A DNA stretch of 64,000 nucleotides from Marivirga harenae (GTDB taxonomy: Bacteria; Bacteroidota; Bacteroidia; Cytophagales; Cyclobacteriaceae), in contig NZ_CP130565.1 of NCBI RefSeq assembly GCF_030534335.1, forward strand, positions 4,299,501 to 4,363,500, written 5' to 3'. Positions 28,095-48,871 of the stretch are shown here, one piece after another; positions within the stretch are counted from its first letter, which is position 1, and every line of letters starts with the position of its first letter. Below the pieces are notes generated by a model. That model saw only the letters and a program-made list of their open reading frames with translations. It was not told the DNA's origin and did no database searches. Position numbers and translations under genes: made by a program.

Positions 28095-28103
28095 GTGGAG
28101 TTG
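28095..28103 (+). other. Left attachment core (attL)
   Basis: GTGGAGTTG with left flank TTATT (chromosome, ssrA terminator side) and right flank TCAAG (element). It is a direct copy of the core in ssrA at 48863. The flank logic fits attB = TTATT-core-GAGGG and attP = TCAAA-core-TCAAG. Confidence 0.88.
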
Positions 28104-28137
28104 TCAAGAACAAACCCTATCCTTCAAAATCTTCGTT

Positions 28138-28161
28138 TCTGCTTAGCATAAGCAGATTTTT
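28138..28161 (+). terminator. Hairpin with T run near the left end of the island
   Basis: TCTGCTTA and TAAGCAGA form an 8-bp stem with a 3-nt loop, followed by TTTTT. The T run itself begins a second perfect hairpin (TTTTTCAC-CTTA-GTGAAAAA, 28157-28176). The same structure occurs inverted at 45270-45308. It may block transcription entering the element from the chromosome, or be part of the integrase binding region. Confidence 0.55.
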
Positions 28162-28178
28162 CACCTTAGTGAAAAAGC

Positions 28179-28200
28179 AGGTACTACAATTGGTCAATTA
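28179..28200 (+). promoter_or_regulatory. Candidate integrase arm-type site, left
   Basis: A 22-bp sequence beginning AGGTACTACAATTGG lies 76 bp inside the left core. It matches 48641-48662, on the other side of the core in the circular form, at 21 of 22 positions. Such repeats around an attP are usual binding sites for the N-terminal arm domain of tyrosine integrases. Binding is inferred. Confidence 0.5.
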
Positions 28201-28306
28201 TTTTAGCTTTTCAACTGATTTTCTTGTGATTTTCACACTCTTAAGATAATTGATTTAATTGGGATGATAAAACGATCAGAACTATCAATTTCTTCACTGC
28301 GTTAAA

Positions 28307-28498
28307 TTGGATATGCTTAGATATGATAAAGTATTAATCAACTACCGAAGACTGCACCATCGGATATCACGTGGTGAGAGTTTATCTCCTGACCATCAAC
28401 GATATTATGACGGTGCAAGTAAACTACTTTCTGGTATCATCAAACATGGTAACCTTAATAGTGGTAACGGCTTAGATACCAATAATAAAAAATTATAA
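28307..28498 (+). CDS. Small protein of the island repeat (copy 1), unknown
   Basis: This 63-residue basic protein is identical to that at 44948-45139. The N-terminal half is helical with many Arg, His and Tyr (YDKVLINYRRLHHRISRGE), so nucleic-acid binding is possible. I know no family for it. It lies ~200 bp from the attachment core, a place where excision (Xis-like) factors are often encoded, but no known Xis pattern is seen. Perfect conservation in both arms reflects the repeat rather than selection. Confidence 0.45.
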   Translation: MDMLRYDKVLINYRRLHHRISRGESLSPDHQRYYDGASKLLSGIIKHGNLNSGNGLDTNNKKL

Positions 28499-28542
28499 TA
28501 TTTTATAAAATCTACTTTTAGCTAAAATTCTACTTAGAAGTT

Positions 28543-28722
28543 CCGCATGTATGCGGGCACGGGGTATCACCCCCTGCAGTCCCCCTTCGTAATGGCGGGG
28601 GGATACTCCCCCCACCACTACTTCAACTAATACAATGTACAAGCATCGGTACTAGATGTGGATAAGACCTTATTATGACGGTGGTATAGTTTCGCTTTAT
28701 AGCGAGCACAGGGCTATGCCCT
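28543..28722. ncRNA. Array of five GC-rich hairpins (copy 1), candidate structured RNA or origin
   Basis: Within 180 bp of an otherwise AT-rich region are five perfect short stems: CCGCAT/ATGCGG (28543-28556), GGGGT/ACCCC (28561-28573), GGGGGG/CCCCCC (28597-28613), CGCT/AGCG (28693-28704) and AGGGC/GCCCT (28710-28722). There is no open reading frame of note. It may be a structured RNA, a replication or transfer origin, or a recombination site. The type label is a guess. Confidence 0.35.
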
Positions 28723-28972
28723 TTGCAAAACCCATGTGATAGAAGAATAAGGAAAATATCCCTTTAAATGGATTTAAGACCGATATGGGGATTCCCATAA
28801 CCGTCTAATTTGCTTTAAACGCATTTTTTAAAATATAGTGTATTGACTGATAAGATATTAAAGACTGGCACTAGTTATCTTATTAGATAATGAAAATGGG
28901 TAATTAGGGGTACATTATTCTTTTCCTTTTACTAATGAACAAGTGTTTACCCATTTTATGGTAATGAGAATG

Positions 28973-28994
28973 AAACGCCTCATTAGAGGTGTTT
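28973..28994 (-). terminator. Terminator after the 81-codon gene (copy 1)
   Basis: AAACGCCTC and GAGGTGTTT (one G-T pair) form a 9-bp stem with a 4-nt loop, 43 bp past the stop of the 81-codon frame on the minus strand. The T run on that strand is weak, but a run exists on the plus side. Confidence 0.55.
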
Positions 28995-29036
28995 TATTTG
29001 AGAGTGTTAAGCTTATCGTTAATTGAATAAAGTATA

Positions 29037-29282
29037 TCAATTTAGATTTAATGATATCACCATTAGATCATTAGTGACACAATATTCAAATTGATCAACA
29101 TAATATTTAATCTCCACTGGAGTAAATTCATCTACCTTCTTTACATTCTTCATGAGATTACGATATCTCACAAAGCATTGCTTATGTTCACATTCTAATA
29201 TCATGTAAGCTCTTCGGAATGTATCCAGTGAAGTGTATGCTAGTCTTTCATCTGGCAGTAGGTGCATCTCTCGGATTCTCAT
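29037..29282 (-). CDS. Small protein of the island repeat (copy 1), unknown
   Basis: This 81-residue protein is identical to that at 44164-44409. It is helical, with three Cys and several aromatic residues (FRRAYMILECEHKQCFVRYRN), and I know no family for it. In the intact arrangement on the right arm it follows the serine recombinase by 123 bp on the same strand, so it may be a recombination accessory protein. Here it follows only the recombinase remnant. A hairpin terminator lies downstream. Confidence 0.5.
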   Translation of the reverse strand: MRIREMHLLPDERLAYTSLDTFRRAYMILECEHKQCFVRYRNLMKNVKKVDEFTPVEIKYYVDQFEYCVTNDLMVISLNLN

Positions 29283-29405
29283 GATAGTGTGGGTAAATAA
29301 ACGTTCGGTTATTTGGTAATAGATTTACAGGGGAGGTTGACGGGATTGGTGAGCAGAATTAGCAGTTTAATTATAACAGTAATTTTTTACCCCCACCTTT
29401 ATTTA

Positions 29406-29547
29406 CTATAGTTGCAACTTCCTTCTAGCTTCTCGCAACACGTAACCATCGGTTTTTCTTTTCTTTTTATCTTTAGCACCTGCTGGTCTGCCTACCTTCT
29501 TGCCTTGTGATCTGGCTCGATTAAGTCCTTCAATGGTACGCTGCCTA
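29406..29547 (-). pseudogene. Remnant (last 47 codons) of the serine recombinase
   Basis: This is the reverse-strand copy of 43899-44040 and ends with the same stop codon. The match stops at 29547 because the repeat ends there. It lacks the catalytic domain and is not functional as it stands. If the interval 29548-43898 were inverted, this remnant would be joined to the 5' part and restore a full gene. Confidence 0.9.
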
Positions 29548-29607
29548 TAATATGATAATTTGGCAAGATTATTGCAGTATTCATGTAAAAAAATTTGTGT
29601 GGATTAA

Positions 29608-30264
29608 ATGAGAAGGTGTTACAATTGTGGGAAAGAAGTGAGTAGAAAAGACAAATCAGAGATTAAGGAGCACATTCCCGCTCAAAATCTGTTCGCTGGA
29701 TACAGCTCGGAGTACAAAAATAACAGGATAGTTGTGCCAAGTTGTAAGGATTGTAATAATGGAACAAGTGACATTGATGAAGAGTTTAGAAACTTTATTG
29801 GTGTTATGAGTAACTCCGAAGAACTAGATCAGATAAGTAAGAATACAACAAAATCCATGATAACCCTTAAAAAAGAGTTTGAAAGATTAACCCTAGATGA
29901 AAATGGAAATATTATTGGTGTGAAATTTAATGACAGGCAAATAAAAGATAATCATTGTAAAATATTTAAGGGGCTTTATTACCATCAATATAGTCAACCA
30001 CTACCACAGGATTACAAGGTAGAGGCAACATTTGATCCAACTGAATATACTCAAATGTGCGTACACTATTTGCAAGGCAATTTTAAATGGGATCATTCTG
30101 GTCACCCAGAAGTTTTTAAGTATATTATTCAGCCTTTTAGAGAAAACTTAAATAATCCAGAAAAAAAGAATTTACAAATGAGTTCCGAAGATTCCGTTAT
30201 CGTTGGGCTTCTTGTTTATAATGTACATCATGCTTGCATTGTTCTTGCTTCTAATAACATTTGA
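29608..30264 (+). CDS. HNH-like zinc-finger nuclease candidate
   Basis: This 218-residue protein has an N-terminal Cys4-type HNH-like core: CYNCGKE (4-10), then KEHIPAQNLF with the likely catalytic His, then VPSCKDCNNG with the second Cys pair. This pattern is seen in HNH nucleases linked to defence and mobile elements. The C-terminal ~140 residues have no recognised domain. It is the only plus-strand gene next to the restriction operon and converges on the DUF2971 gene. The nuclease role is inferred from the motif. Confidence 0.6.
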   Translation: MRRCYNCGKEVSRKDKSEIKEHIPAQNLFAGYSSEYKNNRIVVPSCKDCNNGTSDIDEEFRNFIGVMSNSEELDQISKNTTKSMITLKKEFERLTLDENGNIIGVKFNDRQIKDNHCKIFKGLYYHQYSQPLPQDYKVEATFDPTEYTQMCVHYLQGNFKWDHSGHPEVFKYIIQPFRENLNNPEKKNLQMSSEDSVIVGLLVYNVHHACIVLASNNI

Positions 30265-30291
30265 GGATTTATAGATTTACATTTGTTAAAT

Positions 30292-31083
30292 CTAATATAC
30301 TGGAGGTTTTAGTAGGCTAGATTTCTCAATTATCGAAGTTTTCCCGTTACTACCGAGTATTTCTTCTACCTTTCTTTTTACATCTCCACCACTGGTTGGA
30401 GGAAGAATTATTTTATGTATTAATTTATTTAGATCGCAACTGATGAACTTACCATTCTCGTTATCTTCCCAATAATAGTCATCATGAACTGCATCTTGAA
30501 TTTCTGCAAATAAACGTAATTCACGCTCATGCTCAAAAGCCTTCCTTTTATGAATTATTGGGCTTGACAAGTTATAGCTCTTTACTGGATAGTCTTTTTT
30601 GTCATACCAAACATCTTTTTCATAATCTAAGTATCGAACTTTACTAATTGCCACTTCTTCATCGGAAGATTCAAAAGCAGCTTTTAAACCCCGCACTGTA
30701 GATTGTATTGCGACTCCTTCATTGGATTTAAGATATAATCTCCACATAGCATCAGATTCACCATCATTTTGATGCCAGCAATTAACTATAAATGATCTTT
30801 TTAGTTTCTGGTGAAATATTCCGATTTCGTCACTTTTATTTTTAGCTTCTTCAGTAGTTATTTTCTTACCAAATTCTGATGCAATTATATGTTCCATTTT
30901 CTGTCTAAACTCTACTTCTCTCTTCGGAACACTTCCTTCGTATGGATCAGAAAATTTATCTGATCTACAAAAAAACAAAGATTTTTGATTCAGAAGACTT
31001 TCAAATTTTTCCAAATCCATATAACGCCATATGGTAAGGTTATCATCAGGCTCTATTAATGCTGGATAAGTTATAATTGACAT
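30292..31083 (-). CDS. DUF2971 protein, last gene of the restriction operon
   Basis: This 263-residue protein shows the DUF2971 pattern: LTIWRYMDLEKFESLL, LFFCRSDKFSDPYEG, then FIVNCWHQNDGESDAMWRLY, the conserved W/D/MW core, and KRKAFEHERELRLF near the end. The function of the family is unsettled; members occur often in defence islands. It starts 6 bp after the HNH gene, so it is the sixth gene of the hsd operon. Confidence 0.82.
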   Translation of the reverse strand: MSIITYPALIEPDDNLTIWRYMDLEKFESLLNQKSLFFCRSDKFSDPYEGSVPKREVEFRQKMEHIIASEFGKKITTEEAKNKSDEIGIFHQKLKRSFIVNCWHQNDGESDAMWRLYLKSNEGVAIQSTVRGLKAAFESSDEEVAISKVRYLDYEKDVWYDKKDYPVKSYNLSSPIIHKRKAFEHERELRLFAEIQDAVHDDYYWEDNENGKFISCDLNKLIHKIILPPTSGGDVKRKVEEILGSNGKTSIIEKSSLLKPPVY

Positions 31084-31089
31084 CCTGAT

Positions 31090-32133
31090 TTATTTTAAGA
31101 TAGACTTCAACTCTTCAATACTATACACTGGATCACCTTTATGAAGCATTTTATGGCAATTACTACATACCAAGGCTATGTCCGATTTCTTAGTGACTTT
31201 TTCTCCCTCTTTTTCAGCGAGGGGATTTAGGTGATGTGCTTCGATAAAACCTTCTCCGCATTGTCCGTATACTTCCTTGAAAGAAAACCCACATACTTCG
31301 CACCTCAGTAGTGGGTCTTTAGCGATAGCCGACTTTTTAATATTCAATATAAAAGAAGGATTTCTTTCATATTGCATATGTGTAGAAAGCTTTGACTTTC
31401 CTTCTACCGTGGATAGATTACCTTCATCTTGGACATCCTTATTAGTATCACTTGATTTATAAAGTTCTAAGATTTCCCGATGGATAAATAAGTGGAAATC
31501 TTCTATCAACCATGCCCAGTCAATCTTGCCGAAACTATCCTTGGCTTTTACATTTAGTTCAGGATTGTCTCTGTAAAACTTATTCCACTCTGCCAACCAT
31601 AGGCTTTCTATAGGAAAGTCTCTCAGAATCCTCTCCGTTTCCTTGAAATATTCTTGACATTGAAGGAAGTATTTTATTCCTTTTTTATGCAACTGATCTA
31701 AGTCTTTATTAAATAAGTATGAGATGGTGTATGTAAAACCTGACATAGGTGAAGCATAGAATCTATTAGGGAACAGAGATGCGATCCAAGCAGAAAGTCC
31801 TGTAAAACTCATTGATCTCCCACTCCAATCGATACTGTCAAAGCTATTTCCTTCATGTAATCGTCTGAAAAGTTCAATATCAGATATTGTAATAAATTCG
31901 CTTAGTTTTTCCCTACCACTCTTTTGTACGAACTGTACTCCACGGCTTCCATATGTGTAGGTTATTTTCTGAGAATTTATTAATACTTCAAGAATTTGTA
32001 GGTTTGAATCAGACCAGTAGACATTTTCATATACGTAGTTGGCGTATTCGAACTTATAGGATTCTTTTTTAATCCATTCTCCAGCTTTGCAAGCCTTCAA
32101 ATATTTACTTATCACTTTGTCCAGTTGCTGCAT
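31090..32133 (-). CDS. HNH endonuclease of the restriction operon
   Basis: This 347-residue protein has a C-terminal McrA-like HNH domain: CEVC (278-281), EAHHLNPL (about 298-305, with the catalytic His pair) and CSNCH (323-327). The N-terminal ~270 residues are a separate domain that I do not recognise, possibly for target recognition. It starts 1 bp after hsdR and precedes DUF2971. HNH proteins of this kind can cut modified DNA; as part of this operon it may be a second restriction activity. The function is inferred. Confidence 0.8.
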   Translation of the reverse strand: MQQLDKVISKYLKACKAGEWIKKESYKFEYANYVYENVYWSDSNLQILEVLINSQKITYTYGSRGVQFVQKSGREKLSEFITISDIELFRRLHEGNSFDSIDWSGRSMSFTGLSAWIASLFPNRFYASPMSGFTYTISYLFNKDLDQLHKKGIKYFLQCQEYFKETERILRDFPIESLWLAEWNKFYRDNPELNVKAKDSFGKIDWAWLIEDFHLFIHREILELYKSSDTNKDVQDEGNLSTVEGKSKLSTHMQYERNPSFILNIKKSAIAKDPLLRCEVCGFSFKEVYGQCGEGFIEAHHLNPLAEKEGEKVTKKSDIALVCSNCHKMLHKGDPVYSIEELKSILK

Positions 32134-32134
32134 A

Positions 32135-35083
32135 TTAGTCTTTTCTTAACCTCTCATATACCTTCTCCAGCATCCAACCCTTCACCACTTTTGAGAAATC
32201 CTGATCATCCATGATCTTCTGAAAAATATCTTGATTTTGATCCATTCGGTTGATGATCGAATTTAAAAACATCTCTTCAAATCCGTATTTAAAATTCTCT
32301 TTAGTGTTAGACTTTGCCTGTTGCTGTAGGGAAGAATTAGCAGAAAGTTCTTCCTCTATTTGGTCAAAAAATAGCTTGTCACCGTCCTTGAATTCTGTGC
32401 CAAATCTGTCGTTCAGGACATTGATTATTTCCGAAAGCTGTGCCTTATCTTCCTTAGTCTGGCGAATGCCAGCCTCCTTGATTCCATCAAGACCATACTC
32501 TGCTTGATCCTCAAGCAGGATGGCTGATTCCCTCATCTTCTGGATTCGGTAGTACTCTAACGCTACCTCGTCTCCAAGCTGAAATTTGTCAGTTTCTTTT
32601 CGTGGCAATTTCTTTAGTAAAAATCTTAAATAGGCAAATAGCTTCTCCAGCTCAGCATCCTGAAAAGGCATAATTTGAGTTAAGAATGAATACAGCCTAG
32701 TAAAGGTGGTGGCTGCATGTTTAAAATTTTCTTGCTCGTCCTCCGATGGCATATGTATAAATCGTTGTACTGCAGGATCAATGTAGCTATTTAATTTTGC
32801 ATGGTCTTTCTTTGATAATTCCGCACCAGCTTTAAAATAGGTGCTGGCAAAATTATCGATCTCCGATTGCCAGAGAATTTGAGAACTTTCCAGTTGATTC
32901 TTGAGGTCATATAAGTGGTCAGGGTCAGTAGATTCTTCTACAGTAGTAAGCTCATAGAATGGCTGAAAAGACTCTTTGATGCTTTCCTCTTCATTTACGA
33001 AGTCCAAAACAAAAGTCCCTTCTTTACCTTTGGTGGTTCTATTCAGTCTTGACAGTGTTTGTACTGCTAATACTCCAGACAGTGGCTTATCAACATACAT
33101 AGTATGTAGCAGTGGCTCGTCAAAACCCGTTTGATATTTGTTAGCCACTATTAGCACTTGGTACTCATTTGAATGAAACTTATCCTTAAGTTCACTCATT
33201 GAGAATCCTGTCATTTGTGGTTCTGTGTACTCTGCACCACCATCATTAACAGTTCCCGAAAATGCCACTAAGGTTTTAATGTCAGTGTACTTCTTTTCTT
33301 TGATATACCTGTCAAACTCCAGCTTATAGCGTACAGCATGAAGTCTTGACGAAGTAACTAACATGGCTTTTGCTTTACCACCTATCTTGTGAGCCACCAC
33401 TCGTCTAAAGTGCTCGACCATCACCTCTGTTTTTTGGGCGATGTTGTGCGGGTGCAGCTTCACAAAGCGTGCAATAGCTATGGCTGCTTTCTTCTTGTTT
33501 ACTTCAGGATCATCCTGAATAGCTTTAGTAAGCTTAAAAAAAGTTTTATAAGTGGTATAGTTCTTTAATACATCGTGGATAAAACCTTCTTGGATTGCCT
33601 GCTTCATTGAGTAGAGATGGAATGGCTTTGGCTTGCCTTCTTTTTCTTTTGTCCCGAAGACTTCAAGTGTCTTATATTTTGGAGTAGCAGTAAATCCAAA
33701 GAAACTGAGGTTATCTTGCTTACCACGTGCCATCATGGATTTTCTGATCTGATCTTCACCGTCTTCTATTTCAACATCATCCTCATCGGCAGCTTCTTCA
33801 AGGCTGCCAGATGAGAGCACTTCCTTCATCTTTTTAGTAGCCTCACCTCCCTGACTCGAATGTGACTCATCTACAATTACCGCATAATTCCTTGCAGGTA
33901 GTCCTGATATTTTACCAATAACAAAGGGGAACTTTTGCAAAGTGGTAATAATGATATTCTTACCTTCTTGTAGTGCTTTTGCTAACTGGCTGGAATCCTT
34001 ATCAATGCGTTGTACTACTCCTTGCGTATGTTCAAACTGATAGATGGTATCCTGCAATTGATTATCTAAAACCGTTCGATCGGTGATTACGATAACGCTG
34101 TCGAATATACGCTGATCTTGGTCATTGTGGAGACTTGATAATCGATAGGACAGCCATGCAATACTATTACTTTTCCCACTACCTGCAGAGTGCTGAATCA
34201 GATAATTTTTACCTGTTCCTGATACTTTTGCATCAGCTACTAATTTACGGACAGCGTCCATTTGATGATACCTTGGGAAAATCAACTTATCCCAGTTTCC
34301 ATCTTCATCTTTTTCTAAATGAATGAATTTGCCAATTAGCTCCAGTACACTCGACTTAGCAAAAACTTCGTTCCAGAGATAGTCCGTTCTTCGTCCATCT
34401 TCATTCGGTGGATTACCAGCACCATTATCATAGCCCTTATTAAAGGGTAAATAGAATGTTTTTTTACCAGCCACTTTAGTGGTCATGGAACAAGTGTCTG
34501 CATCCACAGCAAAATGTACCAACGAACCTTTGTTAAAGTGGAAAAGCGGCTCTTTAAAGTTACGGTCAAAAATATACTGCTTCTCTGCATTTGCAGTAGT
34601 CTGCCCAGTAAAGGCATTCTTTAACTCAATGGTGGCAATACTAAAACCGTTGAGACTAATCAATAAGTCGATACTATTCTCATTTTTTCTGTCATACTTT
34701 ACCTGACGCGTGACAGAAAGTATATTCTGCTCATATTTTTTATATGCCTCTTCATTTAGCTTGCTGACAGGTTTAAAATAAGCCAGTTTTAACTTCACAC
34801 CATGGGTGGTAATTCCATTTCGAATTACATCCAGTAGCCCTCTGCTTTTAATTTCATGTTGTAAACGGTAAGCAATCCTGCTCTCAGTATTATCACCATG
34901 TACCTTCTCCAGTTTCTGGTAAGCAACTTCCTGAGTGTCTTTTAAGAAAGAGTAAAGCTGGCTTGGAATAAGTGCTGTCTCTTTATCAAACTCATTGGCT
35001 AGATACTGCTGGTATCCTTGTTCTTTCAACAGCTCTATTACTTCATCCTCGAAATCTTTTTCAGTATATGATGATTGACCCAT
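32135..35083 (-). CDS. hsdR: Type I restriction enzyme R subunit
   Basis: HsdR is the translocating nuclease of type I restriction enzymes: ATP-driven DNA pumping followed by random cleavage. The 982-residue protein has the N-terminal PD-(D/E)XK nuclease (D139, E153, K155 in IDLLI...IELK), Walker A SAGSGKS (299-305), a DESH Walker B (VIVDESHSSQ) and helicase motif VI (LSRLNRT). It is separated by 1 bp from the DUF262 gene upstream and by 1 bp from the HNH gene downstream. All motifs are intact, so it should be active. Confidence 0.96.
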   Translation of the reverse strand: MGQSSYTEKDFEDEVIELLKEQGYQQYLANEFDKETALIPSQLYSFLKDTQEVAYQKLEKVHGDNTESRIAYRLQHEIKSRGLLDVIRNGITTHGVKLKLAYFKPVSKLNEEAYKKYEQNILSVTRQVKYDRKNENSIDLLISLNGFSIATIELKNAFTGQTTANAEKQYIFDRNFKEPLFHFNKGSLVHFAVDADTCSMTTKVAGKKTFYLPFNKGYDNGAGNPPNEDGRRTDYLWNEVFAKSSVLELIGKFIHLEKDEDGNWDKLIFPRYHQMDAVRKLVADAKVSGTGKNYLIQHSAGSGKSNSIAWLSYRLSSLHNDQDQRIFDSVIVITDRTVLDNQLQDTIYQFEHTQGVVQRIDKDSSQLAKALQEGKNIIITTLQKFPFVIGKISGLPARNYAVIVDESHSSQGGEATKKMKEVLSSGSLEEAADEDDVEIEDGEDQIRKSMMARGKQDNLSFFGFTATPKYKTLEVFGTKEKEGKPKPFHLYSMKQAIQEGFIHDVLKNYTTYKTFFKLTKAIQDDPEVNKKKAAIAIARFVKLHPHNIAQKTEVMVEHFRRVVAHKIGGKAKAMLVTSSRLHAVRYKLEFDRYIKEKKYTDIKTLVAFSGTVNDGGAEYTEPQMTGFSMSELKDKFHSNEYQVLIVANKYQTGFDEPLLHTMYVDKPLSGVLAVQTLSRLNRTTKGKEGTFVLDFVNEEESIKESFQPFYELTTVEESTDPDHLYDLKNQLESSQILWQSEIDNFASTYFKAGAELSKKDHAKLNSYIDPAVQRFIHMPSEDEQENFKHAATTFTRLYSFLTQIMPFQDAELEKLFAYLRFLLKKLPRKETDKFQLGDEVALEYYRIQKMRESAILLEDQAEYGLDGIKEAGIRQTKEDKAQLSEIINVLNDRFGTEFKDGDKLFFDQIEEELSANSSLQQQAKSNTKENFKYGFEEMFLNSIINRMDQNQDIFQKIMDDQDFSKVVKGWMLEKVYERLRKD

Positions 35084-35084
35084 A

Positions 35085-39990: not shown

Positions 39991-40196
39991 GTTTCAGTAT
40001 AGTGAGTAAAAGGGTGAAGATAATAAAGACTCAGTAAAATTTACCATCTGTGGAAGATTTATGTATTGCAAGCGTAGGTTCTATTCCATTTTGCTCCATA
40101 TTGATGTTTTTTTGGCAGAAATGTAGGTCAAATCTGTGCTTTTCTGTACTCGGTCAGTATTTATAATTAAATAATCTGAATCGTAAATTAAAGAGA

Positions 40197-40406: not shown

Positions 40407-42096
40407 ACAGTGTATTAAAAATAGTAACGATTTGCTGCTCATCTTCATCAGGTAGTGGTAGATCGTTCTTTTGTAGTTCAATCAGACGAGATTGGATATG
40501 GTTGTATGCTTTTTCAGAGACAAGATTTCTTTCCCATCCTATCTCAAGGATTTGCAATAGGTCATCTGTTTCCAATTCTTCGGTTGGTTTATAAAGGTGT
40601 TCAAATCCCTCCGTAATTTCGTGATCTAATGTATTTAAACTCTTCTCCTGATTATAGTTTTCAATCTTAAAATCAGATATAAAACCAAACTCTTGCATGA
40701 CACCCTGCATGATGTTTAGAGCACTATCTTTGTTTCTTTCCGACACCAGTACGGAATCATGGCGTAGAAGAGCAACTATTTTATTTTTATGCAATCGGTT
40801 AAAGATGTGATCGATGAAAATATAAGCCTCAATGGCTTGCAGGTTAGAAGCAAACTTACCGTAAGCTTTATCACCTACATATCGTTTTTTAGCTTCCTTC
40901 ATATCTTTATAACCATCTATAATTTTGAAGACCGTAGGATATTTTTCTTTTACTCTAGCTTTCAATATCGACTTGGAATCTGACTTGGAGAAGAATATAC
41001 TGAAGGTGAATTGCTTGGCTTGCGACCTATTTATTTTTAGTTCATCGGCTAGTATTTGATATATATCTTGCTGGATGACATCATTGAAAAAAGTCTCAAT
41101 ATCATCATCTGATGCAGGTATATTCTTTAGATACAATTGATAAAGATCGTCTAAAAATGTTTTTTGCTTACCTGTAAATTTTGAAAGAAGTGCTTCATCA
41201 TTAGTTCGGTAGCTGTATAAAATATTAGCTAAAAGTGTTAATTGAGAACTTCTCAAATCAATGCCAAGCACCGATTCTCCATTAAGCTTAAGGTATGGAA
41301 GTGCCTTTGAGGGTAAGGATGTAATTATGGAATAAACTCTTCGGGTATTGCTGTTTCTAGTAATACGGAAGTCTTTGTATGCTAAATGCCTTGAGACTTC
41401 AACTGTAGATTTGACTAAGTTTATGTATTTAGTTTGAGCAAAGTCTGCAGGTGTTGTTAATAATATTGAACTTCCTGATCTGTATGCTGATAAATTATTC
41501 TCATGCAGTCTCTTTTGAACTTCGCTAACTCTATAGCCATGTTTAACAGTTCCATTAGGGTATTGAATTTTACTGTCAACATACAAGTTGTCAGGTAGTC
41601 CTGATAGATATATTTGATATGAATATACATCCATTGCCGATGCAGAATTATAGTCCTCCTTGAAAGAATCTAAATCAATACTCGTGGCGTGCATGCCTCT
41701 GTTGAGCCTTTGTAACAGCCTCTCTGATATACTAGAGTTTTTCTTCAGGTGACTACTAAAAGATTTTTCTGGATTGTTATAAAAAACAGGAATAACGGGA
41801 CTGGGACTTAACAGGTATTCACTTGAAATAGCATAAGACTTTTTACCATGGTAATTACCATCTCTAATAATGACTTCGCTTTCAACCAACTTATTGAGGT
41901 AAATGTTATACCTCTTTGAGATTAGCTTTACCCAATAAGAACTAGGAAAATCATGACTCACCTCGTTGTTTTGTCTACAATTATAGAGAATAGCAGATAC
42001 AATGATCAGGTATATATCTAACCTAGTTTTAGGTCTTTGCTCTTCATTAGATAACTCTAATAACCTATTATGTAAAGCTTCATTAATCAGTTCCAT
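40378..42096 (-). CDS. Divergent family-A polymerase-like palm protein
   Basis: This 572-residue protein has the three palm motifs of family-A (T7-like) DNA polymerases in the right order. Motif A is GIDLRSSQLTLLA (278-290) with Asp280. Motif B is RSQAKQFTFSIFFS (357-370) with Arg357 and Lys361. Motif C is RHDSVLV (445-451) with His446 and Asp447. Both catalytic Asp residues are kept, but the motif-A Glu is Gln and the motif-C Glu is Ser, and the motif-B Tyr/Gly become Phe/Ser. The N-terminal ~100 residues may be a winged helix; no 3'-5' exonuclease is seen. A possible role is element replication or repair, or defence. Not a recognised named family to me. Confidence 0.6.
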   Translation of the reverse strand: MELINEALHNRLLELSNEEQRPKTRLDIYLIIVSAILYNCRQNNEVSHDFPSSYWVKLISKRYNIYLNKLVESEVIIRDGNYHGKKSYAISSEYLLSPSPVIPVFYNNPEKSFSSHLKKNSSISERLLQRLNRGMHATSIDLDSFKEDYNSASAMDVYSYQIYLSGLPDNLYVDSKIQYPNGTVKHGYRVSEVQKRLHENNLSAYRSGSSILLTTPADFAQTKYINLVKSTVEVSRHLAYKDFRITRNSNTRRVYSIITSLPSKALPYLKLNGESVLGIDLRSSQLTLLANILYSYRTNDEALLSKFTGKQKTFLDDLYQLYLKNIPASDDDIETFFNDVIQQDIYQILADELKINRSQAKQFTFSIFFSKSDSKSILKARVKEKYPTVFKIIDGYKDMKEAKKRYVGDKAYGKFASNLQAIEAYIFIDHIFNRLHKNKIVALLRHDSVLVSERNKDSALNIMQGVMQEFGFISDFKIENYNQEKSLNTLDHEITEGFEHLYKPTEELETDDLLQILEIGWERNLVSEKAYNHIQSRLIELQKNDLPLPDEDEQQIVTIFNTLFNQETDQAV

Positions 42097-42411
42097 AATG
42101 CAAATATAGAGTACCGATTAGAATGTCAACATCATCATTAGTACCCATTATAATAATTCATTTATATAGATTAGTATTAACAAAACACTATTTTAATATA
42201 AGTGTCATATATTACTATACAAGTATCTACATTTTATATATCTTTTGCATCCACATTTACGCAATATCCTTTATTTAATTAAAAATATAACGGTTTTTAT
42301 CGTAACCATTTCAGCACCGAAATATGTATTTAAAATGCAGATAGAGATTGTAGAAATCCCTTTAAATCTTTTATCCAAGACTTTCTTTAATTTTTGAGAA
42401 TCATCGTTCTT
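42097..42411. other. AT-rich intergenic region in the island
   Basis: This 315-bp region lies between the 114-codon gene and the polymerase-like gene, both on the minus strand. It is very AT-rich, with no credible frame, repeat or hairpin. It must contain the promoter or leader of the polymerase-like gene. Confidence 0.4.
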
Positions 42412-42756
42412 TTAGTTCATTCTTCCGTCCTCATTGACCGATATTAGTAAGAGGCTCTTGCGTAATTCTTTCAGCTCCTCTTCAGGCTCTGCATCTAAGT
42501 CACCATATGATCTCAAAAAGTAATACACCGTATGTTCAGCAATCTCTGAAGGATTACCTAAAAGGCTAAAAAGTATGTCCTCCGATGACAAATTTTTGAC
42601 ATAATCTTCAAATTTCAGTAGACGCTTTACACCTATTTCATTTAAATCCATATCAATTGATTCCAACTGCTTCAGTTTACTTCTCCAGTAAACTGCATAC
42701 TGTATGCCGTTGATAAAAATCTCTTTGTTTTGCTCATTACTAAGCCAGTATTTCAT
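42412..42756 (-). CDS. Hypothetical island protein
   Basis: This 114-residue acidic, soluble protein is not recognised. It starts MKYWLSNEQNKEIFINGIQYAVYWRSKL and is predicted mostly helical, ending in an acidic stretch (EPEEELKEL). It has no Cys or His motif and no signal. It is single and minus-strand, between the HTH gene and the polymerase-like gene. Codon choice looks coding. A small acidic island protein could be an anti-restriction or partner protein, but nothing supports that directly. Confidence 0.5.
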   Translation of the reverse strand: MKYWLSNEQNKEIFINGIQYAVYWRSKLKQLESIDMDLNEIGVKRLLKFEDYVKNLSSEDILFSLLGNPSEIAEHTVYYFLRSYGDLDAEPEEELKELRKSLLLISVNEDGRMN

Positions 42757-42851
42757 ATTATTATTAATTAATCGGCACTAAAACATATTTATCTATACCA
42801 TCTTGCCTCATAGCATAGCACAACTGCAGAACAGACCCTACAGTAAGATCA

Positions 42852-42878
42852 CGACATCAGTGTACATGTCGGTTTTTT
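42852..42878 (+). terminator. Orphan terminator in a gene-less stretch
   Basis: CGACAT (42852-42857) and ATGTCG (42866-42871) with an 8-nt loop are followed by TTTTTT in plus orientation. No plus-strand gene lies upstream, so it may end a short untranslated RNA starting near 42760. The rest of the 42757-43166 gap (410 bp) holds nothing I recognise. Confidence 0.55.
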
Positions 42879-43166
42879 CTTTTGTTTTAGTGTTTACCTC
42901 CAGAAAAGGAAGTGGGTGGAATAGAGGATATTCCATACATTGATTAATTCATCATACGCAGAATAATCATGATCAGTTACAATTATTTTTTTATAAAAAA
43001 CTGCCTACCTACCTTGTAACCAAGGGTTTGAATAAAGTAAAGTACACATATGAGTGAGACTTTGATATAACTGCGGTGATGTTGTACGATGATATTGAAA
43101 CTTAATGTCCCTGCTACAGACAAATAAATTAATCGATATTTTGTGAAAAGTTGATTTTATAAATTT

Positions 43167-43433
43167 TTATAGTCCTTTAAAAAAGTCTTCCAATGACACC
43201 CCTAGCCCTTTACAGACTTTTAATAAGTTGACCATCTGAAAATTAGAACCTGCCTCCATCCTGTATTGACTGATACGGTTTATCCCATTCTTTACTGCAA
43301 AGACTTCGTAACTGTCACCAGTTTTTTCTTCTCGCAACTGTTTAACTCTAACACCTATACTAACTAGTTGGTGCTTAGCGAAATCAGGAATCTCTACTTT
43401 GCTTCGTGTCTTTTTATTTGAGGTCTGTCCCAT
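43167..43433 (-). CDS. XRE-like helix-turn-helix regulator
   Basis: This 88-residue DNA-binding protein has a basic N-terminal tail (TSNKKTRSKVEIP) and a helix-turn-helix domain from about residue 25 (IGVRVKQLREEKTGDSYEVFAVKNGINRISQYRMEAG). The C-terminus (LLKVCKGLGVSLEDFFKGL) is typical of the XRE/Cro family. It diverges from the serine recombinase gene across 82 bp containing tandem palindromic boxes, so it probably represses itself and the recombinase. Confidence 0.85.
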   Translation of the reverse strand: MGQTSNKKTRSKVEIPDFAKHQLVSIGVRVKQLREEKTGDSYEVFAVKNGINRISQYRMEAGSNFQMVNLLKVCKGLGVSLEDFFKGL

Positions 43434-43445
43434 GATGGTGCAATA

Positions 43446-43492
43446 TACTTAATATATTATACTTAATATATTAAGTATTTTATGTATATTTG
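43446..43492 (+). promoter_or_regulatory. Tandem operator and recombinase promoter
   Basis: The 14-bp unit TACTTAATATATTA occurs twice in tandem (43446-43459 and 43460-43473). The second continues into a perfect 18-bp palindrome, TACTTAATATATTAAGTA (43460-43477). A TATATTTG element (43485-43492) follows 8 bp later, 24 bp before the recombinase ATG. A repressor on the palindrome would cover the upstream promoter region. Confidence 0.7.
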
Positions 43493-43515
43493 TTTCTCGC
43501 TAACCTTTCTTAAAT

Positions 43516-44040
43516 ATGAAATTTGCACTTTATGCCAGAGTATCGACAGCAGATGGTCGTCAAAATACTGAGAATCAAACACGGGTATTAATAGACTATG
43601 CTAAGAAGCAAGGGTGGGAATACGATCTCTACGAAGAGCAGGAAAGCACCAGAAAAACAAGACCTACCAAGGCAAAAATGTTATCGCTCCTACGTGCAGG
43701 TAAATATAGTGGTATTGCTGTGGTCAAATTGGATAGATACGCTCGCTCTTCAACCGAATTACTTTTGGAAGTACAAGAGTTACTTGATAGAGGATTAGAA
43801 TTTCATTCCATCAATGAAAATCTAGATTTCAGTACAGCTACAGGTAAACTTCATTTTCATATCTTAAGTGCTTTTGCAGAATTTGAACGAGACCTCATTA
43901 GGCAGCGTACCATTGAAGGACTTAATCGAGCCAGATCACAAGGCAAGAAGGTAGGCAGACCAGCAGGTGCTAAAGATAAAAAGAAAAGAAAAACCGATGG
44001 TTACGTGTTGCGAGAAGCTAGAAGGAAGTTGCAACTATAG
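43516..44040 (+). CDS. Serine recombinase (resolvase/invertase type)
   Basis: This 174-residue site-specific recombinase has the nucleophile Ser10 in YARVST, KLDRYARS carrying active-site Arg residues, and FAEFERDLIRQRT leading to the long E helix. A short basic C-terminus (GRPAGAKDKKKRKTDGYVL) stands for the DNA-binding domain; it is somewhat shorter than the classic HTH of Gin/Hin. From codon 128 the gene lies within the 1,453-bp inverted repeat, so its 3' end is duplicated at 29406-29547. It could act on the repeats or on another site; the target is unknown. Confidence 0.92.
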   Translation: MKFALYARVSTADGRQNTENQTRVLIDYAKKQGWEYDLYEEQESTRKTRPTKAKMLSLLRAGKYSGIAVVKLDRYARSSTELLLEVQELLDRGLEFHSINENLDFSTATGKLHFHILSAFAEFERDLIRQRTIEGLNRARSQGKKVGRPAGAKDKKKRKTDGYVLREARRKLQL

Positions 44041-44163
44041 TAAATAAAGGTGGGGGTAAAAAATTACTGTTATAATTAAACTGCTAATTCTGCTCACCAA
44101 TCCCGTCAACCTCCCCTGTAAATCTATTACCAAATAACCGAACGTTTATTTACCCACACTATC

Positions 44164-44409
44164 ATGAGAATCCGAGAGATGCACCTACTACCAGATGAAA
44201 GACTAGCATACACTTCACTGGATACATTCCGAAGAGCTTACATGATATTAGAATGTGAACATAAGCAATGCTTTGTGAGATATCGTAATCTCATGAAGAA
44301 TGTAAAGAAGGTAGATGAATTTACTCCAGTGGAGATTAAATATTATGTTGATCAATTTGAATATTGTGTCACTAATGATCTAATGGTGATATCATTAAAT
44401 CTAAATTGA
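44164..44409 (+). CDS. Small protein of the island repeat (copy 2), unknown
   Basis: This 81-residue protein, identical to that at 29037-29282, lies 123 bp downstream of the intact serine recombinase on the same strand. Here the two could share a transcript, ending at the hairpin at 44451. It has three Cys and many aromatic and basic residues, with no family known to me. A recombination accessory role is a guess from position. Confidence 0.5.
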   Translation: MRIREMHLLPDERLAYTSLDTFRRAYMILECEHKQCFVRYRNLMKNVKKVDEFTPVEIKYYVDQFEYCVTNDLMVISLNLN

Positions 44410-44450
44410 TATACTTTATTCAATTAACGATAAGCTTAACACTCTCAAAT

Positions 44451-44473
44451 AAAACACCTCTAATGAGGCGTTT
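44451..44473 (+). terminator. Terminator after the 81-codon gene (copy 2)
   Basis: AAACACCTC and GAGGCGTTT form a 9-bp stem (one G-T pair) with a 4-nt loop and a short T run. It is the mirror copy of 28973-28994. It lies 42 bp past the stop codon. Confidence 0.55.
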
Positions 44474-44723
44474 CATTCTCATTACCATAAAATGGGTAAA
44501 CACTTGTTCATTAGTAAAAGGAAAAGAATAATGTACCCCTAATTACCCATTTTCATTATCTAATAAGATAACTAGTGCCAGTCTTTAATATCTTATCAGT
44601 CAATACACTATATTTTAAAAAATGCGTTTAAAGCAAATTAGACGGTTATGGGAATCCCCATATCGGTCTTAAATCCATTTAAAGGGATATTTTCCTTATT
44701 CTTCTATCACATGGGTTTTGCAA

Positions 44724-44903
44724 AGGGCATAGCCCTGTGCTCGCTATAAAGCGAAACTATACCACCGTCATAATAAGGTCTTATCCACATCTAGTACCGA
44801 TGCTTGTACATTGTATTAGTTGAAGTAGTGGTGGGGGGAGTATCCCCCCGCCATTACGAAGGGGGACTGCAGGGGGTGATACCCCGTGCCCGCATACATG
44901 CGG
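44724..44903. ncRNA. Array of five GC-rich hairpins (copy 2)
   Basis: This is the inverted copy of 28543-28722, with the same five stems, including GGGGGG-AGTAT-CCCCCC and AGGGC-ATA-GCCCT. The surrounding DNA is AT-rich and lacks frames. Its type is uncertain: structured RNA, origin or recombination site. Confidence 0.35.
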
Positions 44904-44947
44904 AACTTCTAAGTAGAATTTTAGCTAAAAGTAGATTTTATAAAATA

Positions 44948-45139
44948 TTATAATTTTTTATTATTGGTATCTAAGCCGTTACCACTATTAAGGTTACCAT
45001 GTTTGATGATACCAGAAAGTAGTTTACTTGCACCGTCATAATATCGTTGATGGTCAGGAGATAAACTCTCACCACGTGATATCCGATGGTGCAGTCTTCG
45101 GTAGTTGATTAATACTTTATCATATCTAAGCATATCCAA
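44948..45139 (-). CDS. Small protein of the island repeat (copy 2), unknown
   Basis: This 63-residue basic protein is identical to that at 28307-28498. It is encoded ~200 bp from the internal attachment core and reads away from it. It may bind DNA, judging by its basic helical N-terminal half. No family is recognised. Confidence 0.45.
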   Translation of the reverse strand: MDMLRYDKVLINYRRLHHRISRGESLSPDHQRYYDGASKLLSGIIKHGNLNSGNGLDTNNKKL

Positions 45140-45245
45140 TTTAACGCAGTGAAGAAATTGATAGTTCTGATCGTTTTATCATCCCAATTAAATCAATTAT
45201 CTTAAGAGTGTGAAAATCACAAGAAAATCAGTTGAAAAGCTAAAA

Positions 45246-45267
45246 TAATTGACCAATTGTAGTACCT
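45246..45267 (-). promoter_or_regulatory. Candidate integrase arm-type site, internal copy
   Basis: This is the inverted copy of the 22-bp sequence at 28179-28200, and lies the same 76 bp from the internal core. It is part of the 1,600-bp segment and would serve the internal attP in the same way. Confidence 0.45.
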
Positions 45268-45342
45268 GCTTTTTCACTAAGGTGAAAAATCTGCTTATGC
45301 TAAGCAGAAACGAAGATTTTGAAGGATAGGGTTTGTTCTTGA

Positions 45343-45351
45343 CAACTCCAC
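45343..45351 (-). other. Internal inverted attachment core (attP-like)
   Basis: On the minus strand the site reads TCAAA-GTGGAGTTG-TCAAG, exactly the flanks predicted for the attP that entered ssrA. It is opposite in direction to the two outer cores. It is unrecombined and separates module 1 from module 2. Confidence 0.85.
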
Positions 45352-45551
45352 TTTGAACCCAACCTGACTGTAGAAAAGCATCCTCGATGCCTTTCCACAG
45401 GGGTTGATTTCAAACCTGAATCTGAAGAGATTCTATCCCTATCTACTCATAATCGATGTTTTAATGGTACGTGCCTAGGTCGCTGAAATTACTGGTGGTA
45501 AAAATCAGTAAAAAATGATCTCTTTCTTATGACCTCAACCAAATCAAGAAA

Positions 45552-47330
45552 ATGAAAATAACCTACAATATCCCTAGGTGTGGGAATCTCACAGCCCAAT
45601 TATATCCTAATGCACTTAAGCTTTATGATCTCTTAGATCACTATAAGCATATTGATAGACTCAAAAAAGTTAACCAATTGGGTAGATTACGTGATATCTA
45701 TCAGGGGGCTCATCATACTCGTTTCGAGTATGTATTTCTTCAGTTGGCTTTAATAACTGAATTATGCACTAATAATAGAGCTGATTTTGGCTTTACTTCA
45801 AGTAGAAGGTTTTGTGGAAGAATCAACTCAGAAATTGGAAATCCGTCACTTGGTGATTTGCTTCAGTGTCTCGTTATTTTATCTAATTCAGGTTATATGC
45901 ATGGTACTCTGTCAGCATCAAGAGCATGGTTGTCAGTTCTAAAAAATGATGAAGATGTAAGGCAGATTTTCAGAAGAAATATGGTTTCTGAGGACAGAGC
46001 ATTTTTCGATTCTACTTTAAAAAGTTTTAACTATTATGATTTTAAGTATATAGTTTCATTATTCTTTCTTCAGAGAAGTAAAAGATTTGATCACGGGCGA
46101 GGAACAGCCATATCTGATTTTGGATCAGATGTTATCAGGATGTATATGAAAAGCACTAAAGATATCCAAATAGAGACATGGAAGAGTCTATACAGAACAA
46201 TTAGAAAGATATCTTTTATTACCCTTGATTCCTTATATGCTCCCGTCCCCTTTAATCTAGAATTATCATCTATAATGCTAAATTTTGAAGAGCTTTATGA
46301 GACTCTTTTTATAAAAAATGCCACTTATAATTTAGCTCTGAACAGCCTTGAGCAAGCACTACAAAGTTCAGTTTACCTGTCTTCGGATGCTTGCTTAACT
46401 ACTTCCAAAGCTACAGCAGAGATTCGGAAAGAATTAAATACTCGAATTTCCAAGGGAAACTTGACCGCTACCAGAATAAATAATCTACTTACGGAGGATT
46501 TGAACGTCAAGTCCTCTGTAAATTGGACGAGAGAAAGGAAACTAATTTTAACTTATAGTTTTAACCGAAAGCAGGATCAGCCACCTGCTGCCATCTTTAA
46601 CCCTGCTAAATGGGAATCTGATACAGAAAATAAGATTAATTCCTCACAAGTCATTGCAGGATTATTGCTCAACGGAACAGGTAATACTATCAAGTTATCA
46701 TTTGGTCTTAAGTCCACATCTCCCGTAGAAAACCAAAAAGCAACTTTAAAAATCATTACAGAAGCGATAAAATTTAGAAGTCAATTTAATTCAAATTATA
46801 TTAACTCAAGTGATTTAAATAATCAAAACGAAATGGTAAAAATGCTTTTGAAGTCAATCTTTGGTTGGGAAACTCGTTCTATACTTTCTAATAGCGTTGT
46901 TGGAAAAAGTGCTACTATTTTTTCCAAGGGGCGAGCTTCATTTATTTCTAAATTGGACGAGTACATAGATAATGGTGCTGGAGTACTGGAGGACTCTGAA
47001 ATACATGAGCTAAATGCAATTAGGAGGTTCGTAGAAAACAGAGCATGGGCTGGGCTGACATTTGGATACGTGGGGAACATGCGTCTTTTTCTTAGTGGTA
47101 GCAACAATATAGCTGCTGAGTTTGATGGAATAATAGTTTTACCAACAATTAACCCTTCCAATCCATTTATTTATCTCATTGAAGCAAAAAATACAGCAAA
47201 TGGGATGGGGCATACAGTAGCCATCAATCAAATCAGAAATCGTTTAGATGATCTGCTAAGTGATCATTTATCTTATACTCCTCATCCCATAGATAATTTA
47301 GGTGCTTATGCCGCTATCCAACTTAGTTAG
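45552..47330 (+). CDS. Putative HD-domain plus PD-(D/E)XK nuclease protein
   Basis: This 592-residue protein is not a family I can name. Residues 44-70 (GRLRDIYQGAHHTRFEYVF) resemble the start of HD phosphohydrolase domains, where the HTRFEH motif supplies the first His. The expected HD pair later looks degenerate (LVILSNSGYMHGT, 108-119). Near the C-terminus, EFDGIIV (523-529) and YLIEAK (541-546) form a D-x(18)-E-x-K pattern typical of PD-(D/E)XK nucleases, with D525, E544 and K546. The middle is uncharacterised. It ends tail-to-tail with the integrase (8-bp overlap). A defence role is plausible, but only inferred. Confidence 0.55.
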   Translation: MKITYNIPRCGNLTAQLYPNALKLYDLLDHYKHIDRLKKVNQLGRLRDIYQGAHHTRFEYVFLQLALITELCTNNRADFGFTSSRRFCGRINSEIGNPSLGDLLQCLVILSNSGYMHGTLSASRAWLSVLKNDEDVRQIFRRNMVSEDRAFFDSTLKSFNYYDFKYIVSLFFLQRSKRFDHGRGTAISDFGSDVIRMYMKSTKDIQIETWKSLYRTIRKISFITLDSLYAPVPFNLELSSIMLNFEELYETLFIKNATYNLALNSLEQALQSSVYLSSDACLTTSKATAEIRKELNTRISKGNLTATRINNLLTEDLNVKSSVNWTRERKLILTYSFNRKQDQPPAAIFNPAKWESDTENKINSSQVIAGLLLNGTGNTIKLSFGLKSTSPVENQKATLKIITEAIKFRSQFNSNYINSSDLNNQNEMVKMLLKSIFGWETRSILSNSVVGKSATIFSKGRASFISKLDEYIDNGAGVLEDSEIHELNAIRRFVENRAWAGLTFGYVGNMRLFLSGSNNIAAEFDGIIVLPTINPSNPFIYLIEAKNTANGMGHTVAINQIRNRLDDLLSDHLSYTPHPIDNLGAYAAIQLS

Positions 47331-48552
47331 TAACTGGATTATTTAAATTACTTTTTAGCACTGCAAAATCCTTTTTGATCTTTTCATCGGTGATTGCTGA
47401 ATAAGCGTCTACTGTAACTTTAATGGAACTGTGCCCAAGTAGCAAGCTGAGAGTTTCTATCGGCACTGAGTTCTGCAGCACTACGGATACCGAAAAACTT
47501 TTTCTTGCAAGGTGATGATGTAGCTTTTTGCTGATGCCAGCAACGTCACCAATTTCTTTTAGGTAGGCATTAAACTTTTGGTTGCTAGGAATTGGTAGAC
47601 ATTTTTTCCGTTTGATTGAAACGGGGTGATTTTTGTACTTCTCTAATATCTCAACTGCCTTTGGTAAGAGTGGGATTTTAAACTCATTTCCAGTTTTTTG
47701 TCGTACTATTTTTATCCAGACTTCATTGTCTTCCTGAAGGATATGTTTTGGTTCTAAGTTTTCTACTTCTTTGAAAGCTAAGCCTGAGTAACATGAAAAA
47801 ACAAATAAATCCTTTACAATTTCTAATCTGTCAATATCGAAGCTACATGCGGCTATTTTGTTGATTTCTTCAATTGTCAAAAACTCTACTTTATTCTTTG
47901 GTAGTTTTATTTTAAATCCCTCAAACGGATACCTATCTAAATATCCACGGCTGACTAGAATCCTGACAACCCGAGTGAATCTTTGGTAATGTTTATAACA
48001 GGTAGTCTGAGAGTTGTCATATTCTGTTTTGAGAAAATCAATAAATTTTGATAAAAATTCATGATCAAGCTCAAATAAATGCACATCATTTCTACCCCAT
48101 CGGTGCTTAATGTATTGGCTGATTCTCAGATAAGTATTTGAATATTTACTATAAGTTGGCTTTGAAAAGTCTTTTCCCAAAAGACTTTCTATATGATCAA
48201 GGTGCTGCTGAAACCCTGAAAGAAGGGTAGTGGACTTCTGGTTTTTGCCAGTAAGTTTATCCTTAATTATATGTGCACTTAGTTGTCTACCTTCGGTATG
48301 TAGTTCAAAGGCTGCTCTTTGAGTGTCTGCTGCCATTGTATTTAGAGTTTTGTTTATAGTGCTTAACTCCTGACTACTTCCTTTCACTTTCATACGCTTT
48401 TTGTCCCAATAGGAAGGGGTAATATAAAAGCCTGTAGATACCATGGCTATGGAATTGGGAAGGGTGATCCTCATGTAGATGGGACATTTCCTCTTCTTGT
48501 TTTGCTTAGATTTAACTAACCAAAAACTCGTTTTAACTGATTTTAACATCAT
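47323..48552 (-). CDS. int: Tyrosine recombinase/integrase of the island
   Basis: This 409-residue Bacteroidota-type integrase has an N-terminal arm-binding domain (1-60, with WLVKSKQNKKRKCPIYMR), a SAM-like core-binding domain (about 110-210), and a catalytic domain with K287 (RQKTG), H347/R350 (HHLAR), H374 (LLGHSS) and Tyr384 (nucleophile, AYSAI). The first catalytic Arg position is replaced (SGLAFKEV), as known for many CTnDOT-like enzymes. The gene points away from ssrA and lies 163 bp from the repeat next to the core. It should carry out integration and excision at the ssrA core. Confidence 0.94.
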   Translation of the reverse strand: MMLKSVKTSFWLVKSKQNKKRKCPIYMRITLPNSIAMVSTGFYITPSYWDKKRMKVKGSSQELSTINKTLNTMAADTQRAAFELHTEGRQLSAHIIKDKLTGKNQKSTTLLSGFQQHLDHIESLLGKDFSKPTYSKYSNTYLRISQYIKHRWGRNDVHLFELDHEFLSKFIDFLKTEYDNSQTTCYKHYQRFTRVVRILVSRGYLDRYPFEGFKIKLPKNKVEFLTIEEINKIAACSFDIDRLEIVKDLFVFSCYSGLAFKEVENLEPKHILQEDNEVWIKIVRQKTGNEFKIPLLPKAVEILEKYKNHPVSIKRKKCLPIPSNQKFNAYLKEIGDVAGISKKLHHHLARKSFSVSVVLQNSVPIETLSLLLGHSSIKVTVDAYSAITDEKIKKDFAVLKSNLNNPVTN

Positions 48553-48640
48553 TTTTCATTTTGAATTTAATGATCAGAAAATCAGAATAAGAGCTCAGAA
48601 TAATTGTACCAAATTGACTAGGTGGCTAATGGTATGTAGC

Positions 48641-48662
48641 TAGGTACTAAAATTGGTCAATT
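48641..48662 (+). promoter_or_regulatory. Candidate integrase arm-type site, right
   Basis: A 22-bp sequence beginning AGGTACTAAAATTGG matches 28179-28200 with one difference and has the same direction. It lies 201 bp from the right core, outside the 147-bp repeat and upstream of int, so it could also affect int expression. Confidence 0.5.
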
Positions 48663-48715
48663 AATATTCAATTCAGTAATAAAGAATAATTAAAAAACAA
48701 ACATACTATTAAAAG

Positions 48716-48862
48716 CCACCAGTAATTTCAGCGACCTAGGCACGTACCATTAAAACATCGATTATGAGTAGATAGGGATAGAATCTCTTCAGATTCAGGT
48801 TTGAAATCAACCCCTGTGGAAAGGCATCGAGGATGCTTTTCTACAGTCAGGTTGGGTTCAAA
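48716..48862 (+). repeat. 147-bp inverted repeat at the right end of the island
   Basis: The segment is the exact reverse complement of 45352-45498, compared base by base. It ends at the core in ssrA. It contains a small hairpin, GCATC-GAG-GATGC. With the 1,453-bp arm on the other side of the core it makes up the second copy of the 1,600-bp attachment region. Confidence 0.95.
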
Positions 48863-48871
48863 GTGGAGTTG
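48863..48871 (+). other. Right attachment core in ssrA (attR)
   Basis: GTGGAGTTG with left flank TCAAA (element) and right flank GAGGG (ssrA). All but the first base belong to the tmRNA acceptor stem, so integration leaves ssrA intact up to its last transcribed pairing base. Confidence 0.88.

Follow-up and report, generated by a model that had tools for sequence, protein, structure and literature searches.

An island in the tmRNA gene of Marivirga harenae with a second, inverted attachment-like region, and its recurrence among related integrases

Organisation of the island at ssrA

The window analysed in this study is a 64,000-nucleotide stretch of the Marivirga harenae genome, which consists of one contig of 4,373,458 bp. 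Positions 28095-48871 hold a 20.8-kb defence island, located at the 3' end of ssrA and bounded on both sides by direct copies of a 9-bp core. The core, GTGGAGTTG, corresponds to the 3'-terminal 9 bp of ssrA, which lies on the opposite strand. ssrA, the tmRNA gene (48863-49262, minus strand), is intact; the target gene is restored between direct cores. The island borders are fixed by an empty site in a congener (L033), in which the left flank is continuous into ssrA across a single 9-bp core; in the alignment, the match of the left flank ends at base 1511 and that of the right flank begins at base 1503. A Bacteroidales small SRP RNA adjoins ssrA at 49502-49605.

The order of the island is core-X-A-X'-core'-Y'-B-Y-core, where X is 1444 bp and Y is 147 bp. 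The attL core lies at 28095-28103 (plus strand), the internal inverted core at 45343-45351 (minus strand), and the attR core, which is the 3' end of ssrA, at 48863-48871 (plus strand). An earlier note on this DNA had counted three core copies. That count fits the island, in which the outer copies are direct and the inner copy is inverted, but the window holds a fourth copy beyond the island, at 21324 (minus strand); shuffled sequences are expected to hold 0.22 copies per window. The flanks that the note had given, TTATT/TCAAG, TCAAA/GAGGG, and, on the reverse strand, TCAAA/TCAAG, agree with the sequence letter by letter.

Two inverted pairs were compared base by base. The first, 28095-29547 and 43899-45351, is 1453 bp long with one mismatch, and consists of a core plus X (28104-29547, plus strand) or its inverted copy X' (43899-45342, minus strand). 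The second, 45343-45498 and 48716-48871, is 156 bp long without mismatch, and consists of a core plus Y' (45352-45498, minus strand) or Y (48716-48862, plus strand). The 100% reported for the first pair by the repeat finder is a rounding, as strict equality fails at one base, C at 29256 against T at 44190, which is silent in an 81-aa open reading frame (ORF). The self-alignment proposed in the earlier note thus revealed near-identical segments. The note had equated the internal segment with the island ends joined at the core (147 bp, core, and 1,444 bp); for 43899-45498 this is accurate at 1599 of 1600 positions. The 1600-bp repeat has no further match anywhere in the single-contig genome. Two more integrases of the wider family are encoded elsewhere in the same genome (G000:C1:3226245-3227456 and 196857-198074).

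Unit A (29548-43898) is the cargo unit. By ORF and family searches, it encodes type I restriction and modification proteins, a protein matching the HEC-06/Orf5 models, an HNH protein, a DUF2971/PDC-S31 protein, a 572-aa protein (40378-42096, minus strand), several small ORFs, and a serine recombinase of the resolvase/invertase family (43516-44040, plus strand). For a type I specificity subunit within unit A (36926-38275), the name was assigned from its position and by visual inspection. PADLOC was the one library scanned with the type I and DUF262-like proteins, and the 449-aa specificity-type protein was included in no library scan. The C-terminal part of the resolvase lies within X', and the left arm retains this part only, as a remnant inside which the left copy of X ends. 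Profile searches assigned no family, and no replication family in particular, to the 572-aa protein, and its single PDB match, to citrate synthase, was at chance level (E 0.066). The idea that it is a polymerase, raised by A-family motifs seen by eye, was dropped because the searches gave it no support and the structural model was unusable (pLDDT 38).

Unit B (45499-48715) contains two convergent genes, one for a 592-aa protein (45552-47330, plus strand) and one for a tyrosine integrase (47323-48552, minus strand). In domain searches, the integrase matched the Phage_integrase, SAM-like, and Arm-DNA-bind_5 families (PF00589, PF17293, and PF13102) above the cut-off, covering catalytic and arm-binding domains. 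The 592-aa protein matched no Pfam, PADLOC, or PHROG family at E 0.001; it had one weak NCBIfam match, of 19.3 bits against a cut-off of 416 bits. Its place in unit B is occupied by two other ORFs in the related contig L025.

Each copy of X carries a 61-aa and an 81-aa ORF. In the right copy, the 81-aa ORF lies at 44164-44409 (plus strand) and the 61-aa ORF at 44948-45133 (minus strand). In the left copy, the 81-aa ORF lies at 29037-29282 (minus strand), and the 61-aa ORF at 28313-28498 (plus strand), a position mirrored from the right copy.

Recurrence in Marivirga tractuosa and among related integrases

The earlier note had proposed a search for the same layout in other islands. The full layout is repeated at the same ssrA of a congener, Marivirga tractuosa DSM 4126, and repeats that bracket the integrase occur in further relatives. 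The double-attP layout is therefore recurrent in a group of related integrases at the sequence level, and not a one-off oddity. The M. tractuosa genome is described as finished with a 10-kb paired-end library and PCR (PMC3111994). Its inverted pairs are 1336 bp (1334 of 1336 positions identical) and 203 bp (203 of 203 identical). Relative to the M. harenae island, the cargo is different, the integrase is 59% identical, and X is about 77-81% identical over the long blastn matches. Since the copies in one element resemble each other far more closely than they resemble those of the other element, concerted evolution is indicated, and the double-attP layout looks like a conserved architecture evolving in concert.

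Synonymous divergence (dS) between the two species was 0.48-0.76 for three host genes and 0.32 for the 81-aa ORF, and was saturated for the integrase and the resolvase. The two small ORFs of X are strongly conserved between the two Marivirga elements by sequence comparison (4 of 81 and 5 of 61 residues differ). Past the repeat, the left arm of M. tractuosa leads into a different resolvase C-terminus, and a gene-conversion tract probably ends at this switch. Ahead of the M. tractuosa resolvase, a 110-bp segment (joined L028 and L029 coordinates 32677-32786) is 77% identical to part of X. The M. tractuosa element also encodes a protein with a BT4734-like_N domain, which we take to be related to replication.

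No known family was found for the 81-aa ORF in profile searches; its model, built from two sequences, is helical with a mean pLDDT of 68.7. A role as a putative excisionase was a guess that the family searches did not match, and it was not retained. Among 295 family genomes, the ORF was present in the two Marivirga elements, with one further poor match interrupted by 5 stops, and none was found in the phages or viral contigs searched. X or Y DNA was not found in plasmids.

A survey of 66 loci was carried out, comprising the two complete elements, four contigs (L024-L027), a locus of genome G924 (L106), and 59 further relatives as controls. Relatives were drawn from searches of 390 and 395 genomes. 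The controls correspond to 34 of 143 and 25 of 86 rows (totals that include own-genome rows), mostly, although not strictly, the better-scoring ones. About 9 kb was covered on each side of the integrase (7 of the 59 controls were shorter, at contig or stretch ends); an internal att copy farther away would thus be missed. The integrase is enclosed by an inverted repeat (at least 120 bp, at least 99% identity) in the window, M. tractuosa, and three contigs from other Bacteroidota, namely L025 (141 bp), L027 (142 bp, with the core at both ends), and L106 (120 bp). As the L024 and L026 contigs end too soon for this comparison, the count is five of five testable rows in a group of seven. A comparable integrase-bracketing repeat was present in 0 of the 59 other relatives, one of which, L154, had a single 28-bp inverted pair of 93% identity. 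The contigs of L025, L027, and L106 reach no farther than the repeat on at least one side, and the full layout is visible in two elements. The L106 contig starts inside the repeat, the 120 bp of which are seen twice on the contig, and the repeat presumably reaches the tRNA.

In a maximum-likelihood tree with a midpoint root, the five repeat-bearing and the two untestable rows fall on one side of a branch supported at 100/100. The tool warned of long branches that meet at this root (L106, and the join of L108 and L115 with the group), and L106 is weakly placed inside the group (82/42). The integrases of the repeat-less relatives L116, L157, L160, and L161 lie within 330 bp of a tmRNA gene, yet L106, which adjoins tRNA-Ser, has the repeat; the trait therefore follows the integrase lineage rather than the target. 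A second search, of 42 genomes of the order of G1007 and 14 genomes of the family of G924, added no group member. The second Y was not found in the metagenome-assembled genome of L024, and G924 and G1007 hold no Y copies besides the two on the same contig. No integrase relative was confirmed in viral contigs. Integrase matches in plasmids and phages were all below 60% identity, the listed ones at 35% or less. The cargo past X in L027 (5558-9266) presumably resembles BREX genes. In L026, positions 185-225, within the X region, resemble by eye the 3' end of a tRNA or tmRNA; this fragment had no Rfam match at E 0.1.

Putative arm sites, the Y hairpin, and orientation

A 21-bp motif, GGTACTANAATTGGTCAATTA, occurs at three sites in the window at up to 4 mismatches, namely in X (28180-28200, plus strand), in X' (45246-45266, minus strand), and between the integrase and Y, at the integrase end of B and outside the repeat (48643-48663, plus strand). 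A 19-bp motif occupies the same two places, X and the integrase end of B, in L027. L026 has a motif common to X and the integrase end, of which the B-side copy deviates from the pattern at 2 positions. At the opposite end of B, no copy was found at up to 4 mismatches in the window, L025, or L027. When the first 400 bp of X were compared with the segment on the integrase side, the best match exceeded every one of 100 first-order resamples for the window, L027, and M. tractuosa alike. In M. tractuosa, however, this best match is another sequence, on the opposite strand, and the motif at the same place is weak (4 mismatches). Inverted pairs of 10-17 bp were seen, with no chance control, in five of seven integrase-side segments (L024-L027 and L106); the segments of the window and M. 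tractuosa had weak inverted pairs only, again with no chance control. The 21-bp motif is possibly an arm site of the integrase.

The internal attP-like copy has the X-side motif alone, since the motif of the integrase end lies outside the repeat. With a putative arm site only at the integrase end of B, the two attPs would be unequal. The earlier note had read the three junctions as attL, attR, and an unused attP. The attL, the attR, and an inverted attP-like copy are all present, but the equivalence of the internal copy to a full attP is doubtful, because it lacks the second 21-bp motif in the present orientation of B. If the arm-site reading holds, the internal core now has one putative arm set, and a flip of B would transfer the other to the internal site.

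Y forms a strong hairpin beside the core in all five elements folded (the window, M. tractuosa, L024, L027, and L106; z -3.0 to -5.7), with a T-run in three of the five. Between the window and M. tractuosa, a comparison of two sequences, two-sided changes affect 5 of 25 pairs, and 92% of cells are paired; these values were reached in 11 and 5 of 500 shuffles, respectively, and a control slide by one column still yielded 3 two-sided pair changes. As integration displaces a palindrome that was seen by eye at several empty sites, the hairpin may be a replacement terminator for ssrA or the tRNA gene. A simple consensus scan of 43400-49300 gave no excess over shuffles (20 promoter-like hits against 21.5, and 3 terminator-like hits against 3.4) and did not list the Y hairpin. 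The possibility that read-through from ssrA switches the integrase was set aside, because the Y hairpin makes B look insulated.

The 5' end of the integrase points toward ssrA in the window, M. tractuosa, and L024, and its 3' end points toward tRNA-Ser in L106. X is joined to the 3' side of the integrase in L027 and to the 5' side in L026; the L026 junction represents either a flipped B or an excised circle. Both orientations of B thus occur across the family, between strains. A and B are the same way round in both complete elements, which free flipping does not predict.

Four isomers were built in silico; the left copy of X served for both arms, and the single mismatch was thereby ignored. 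No k-mer differed at k = 101 or 151, and B flips became visible at k = 158; A flips gave no k-mer difference at 1454 and a difference at 1460. The flips preserve 156 bp (B) or 1453 bp (A) beside each junction, and the earlier claim that they leave the junction sequences unchanged is true within the repeat length. On a phase-variable switch, in which inversion would alter the expression of a neighbouring gene, the bearing observations are these preserved stretches and the strong hairpins of Y beside the core. Short reads by themselves could not distinguish the orientation isomers that such islands may have.

Proposed inversion, alternatives, and comparison with known systems

On balance, we read the island as an integrative element with its attP doubled in opposite directions, in which the integrase probably excises the element through the outer cores and inverts parts of it through the inner core. 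Recombination between the outer direct cores would lead to excision and re-insertion, and the excised circle would have the structure [Y-core-X]-A-[X'-core'-Y']-B. Recombination of the inner core with the left core would invert A, and with the right core B. As the inner core is inverted, recombination with it could not delete DNA, only invert it. Gene conversion would keep the repeats alike. The conservation of this odd layout despite the changed cargo and integrase suggests, from comparison of the sequences, that the integrase can flip the island halves and that the layout is not an accident.

The orientation of B would decide which of two sites, the right end on the chromosome or the internal one, has both motifs. 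It is conceivable, although we hold this only tentatively, that the orientation of B sets the ease of excision, alongside an exchange of cargo unit A between related elements. We are somewhat doubtful that these elements form a distinct bacterial class akin to the 2-micron plasmid, in which a self-flipping integrase module would shift its arm-binding site from the chromosomal junction to an internal attP and back, acting as a reversible excision lock, and the inverted cores would let defence modules swap.

Several other explanations were weighed against inversion by the integrase. That the internal copy is a spurious duplication made by the assembly is very improbable. Long and nearly perfect repeats do invite such errors, but the silent difference between the copies and the same layout in the independently finished M. 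tractuosa genome reject this explanation, and diverged versions are present in other contigs. A neutral relic is easier to imagine. An ancestral inverted dimer or duplication, which the integrase could not delete since inverted cores cannot delete each other, might be kept alike by RecA-dependent gene conversion alone, and the resolvase remnants in the left arms of both complete elements resemble leftovers of a longer duplication. We nevertheless consider a relic unlikely, because integrase-bracketing repeats are present in five of five testable rows of a deeply split group despite the turnover of cargo and integrase.

The inverted cores that flank A might alternatively serve to swap cargo units between related elements by double recombination, for which engineered recombinase-mediated cassette exchange offers a parallel. 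Cargo A does differ between the two complete elements at the same site, and X and the integrase have different histories (dS of 0.32 in the 81-aa ORF, 0.48-0.76 in host genes, and saturation in the integrase). X would be expected to travel with A, however, yet X is conserved and the rest of A is not, and purifying selection may explain the low divergence of X; as the main function of the layout, we find such an exchange hard to favour. Copy-number amplification as in the 2-micron plasmid, in which recombination between inverted sites during replication of the circle would turn the forks and produce many copies, is rated as quite improbable. It would accord with the predicted circle, which shares the anatomy of two inverted repeats with recombinase sites and two unique arcs, and with the BT4734-like_N protein of M. 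tractuosa; the absence of a detectable family and of a usable model for the 572-aa protein counts against it.

To our knowledge, integrative elements are usually assumed to carry a single attP and direct att repeats that enable exit. The island shares with other islands that target tRNA or tmRNA genes through a tyrosine integrase its direct cores, the restored 3' end of ssrA, an att-adjacent integrase, and defence-type cargo. It differs in having two attPs, inverted, where the usual islands have one, and no comparable repeat around the integrase was present at the 59 related control loci. A literature search, with most subscription journals outside its reach, found no natural integrative element with two inverted attPs.

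Partial parallels exist. Tandem arrays of SGI1 are described as having an internal attP in the integrated element and tandem units that can be excised (PMC2297512); the internal attP is common to both systems, but the SGI1 units are tandem, whereas the inverted arrangement here could only invert. The Int protein of the Thermococcus plasmid pTN3 is described as inverting, in vitro, the DNA between inverted attP sites that had been placed on a constructed template; in cells, the described inversions lie between chromosomal paralogues (PMC5495485). A tyrosine integrase can therefore invert DNA between attPs, although pTN3, unlike the island, is not a natural double-attP element. In DIRS-type retrotransposons, as here, an internal region is complementary to the joined ends and a tyrosine recombinase is encoded; the island differs from them in that none of its scanned proteins was named as a reverse transcriptase.

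Under the favoured reading, inversion by the integrase, a further parallel is the yeast 2-micron plasmid with its Flp recombinase. Such plasmids have two inverted repeats with a recombinase site and two unique arcs, and the predicted circle is built alike. Unlike them, the present element integrates in a bacterial chromosome, and its integrase has an arm-binding domain. In several Bacteroidota integrase relatives, a second, inverted attP-like region has persisted through extensive turnover of both the cargo and the integrase. If the inversion is true, these islands would represent a naturally occurring bacterial analogue of Flp-type inverted-site circles and inverted-site cassette exchange, and would provide a testable route for defence islands to swap cargo.
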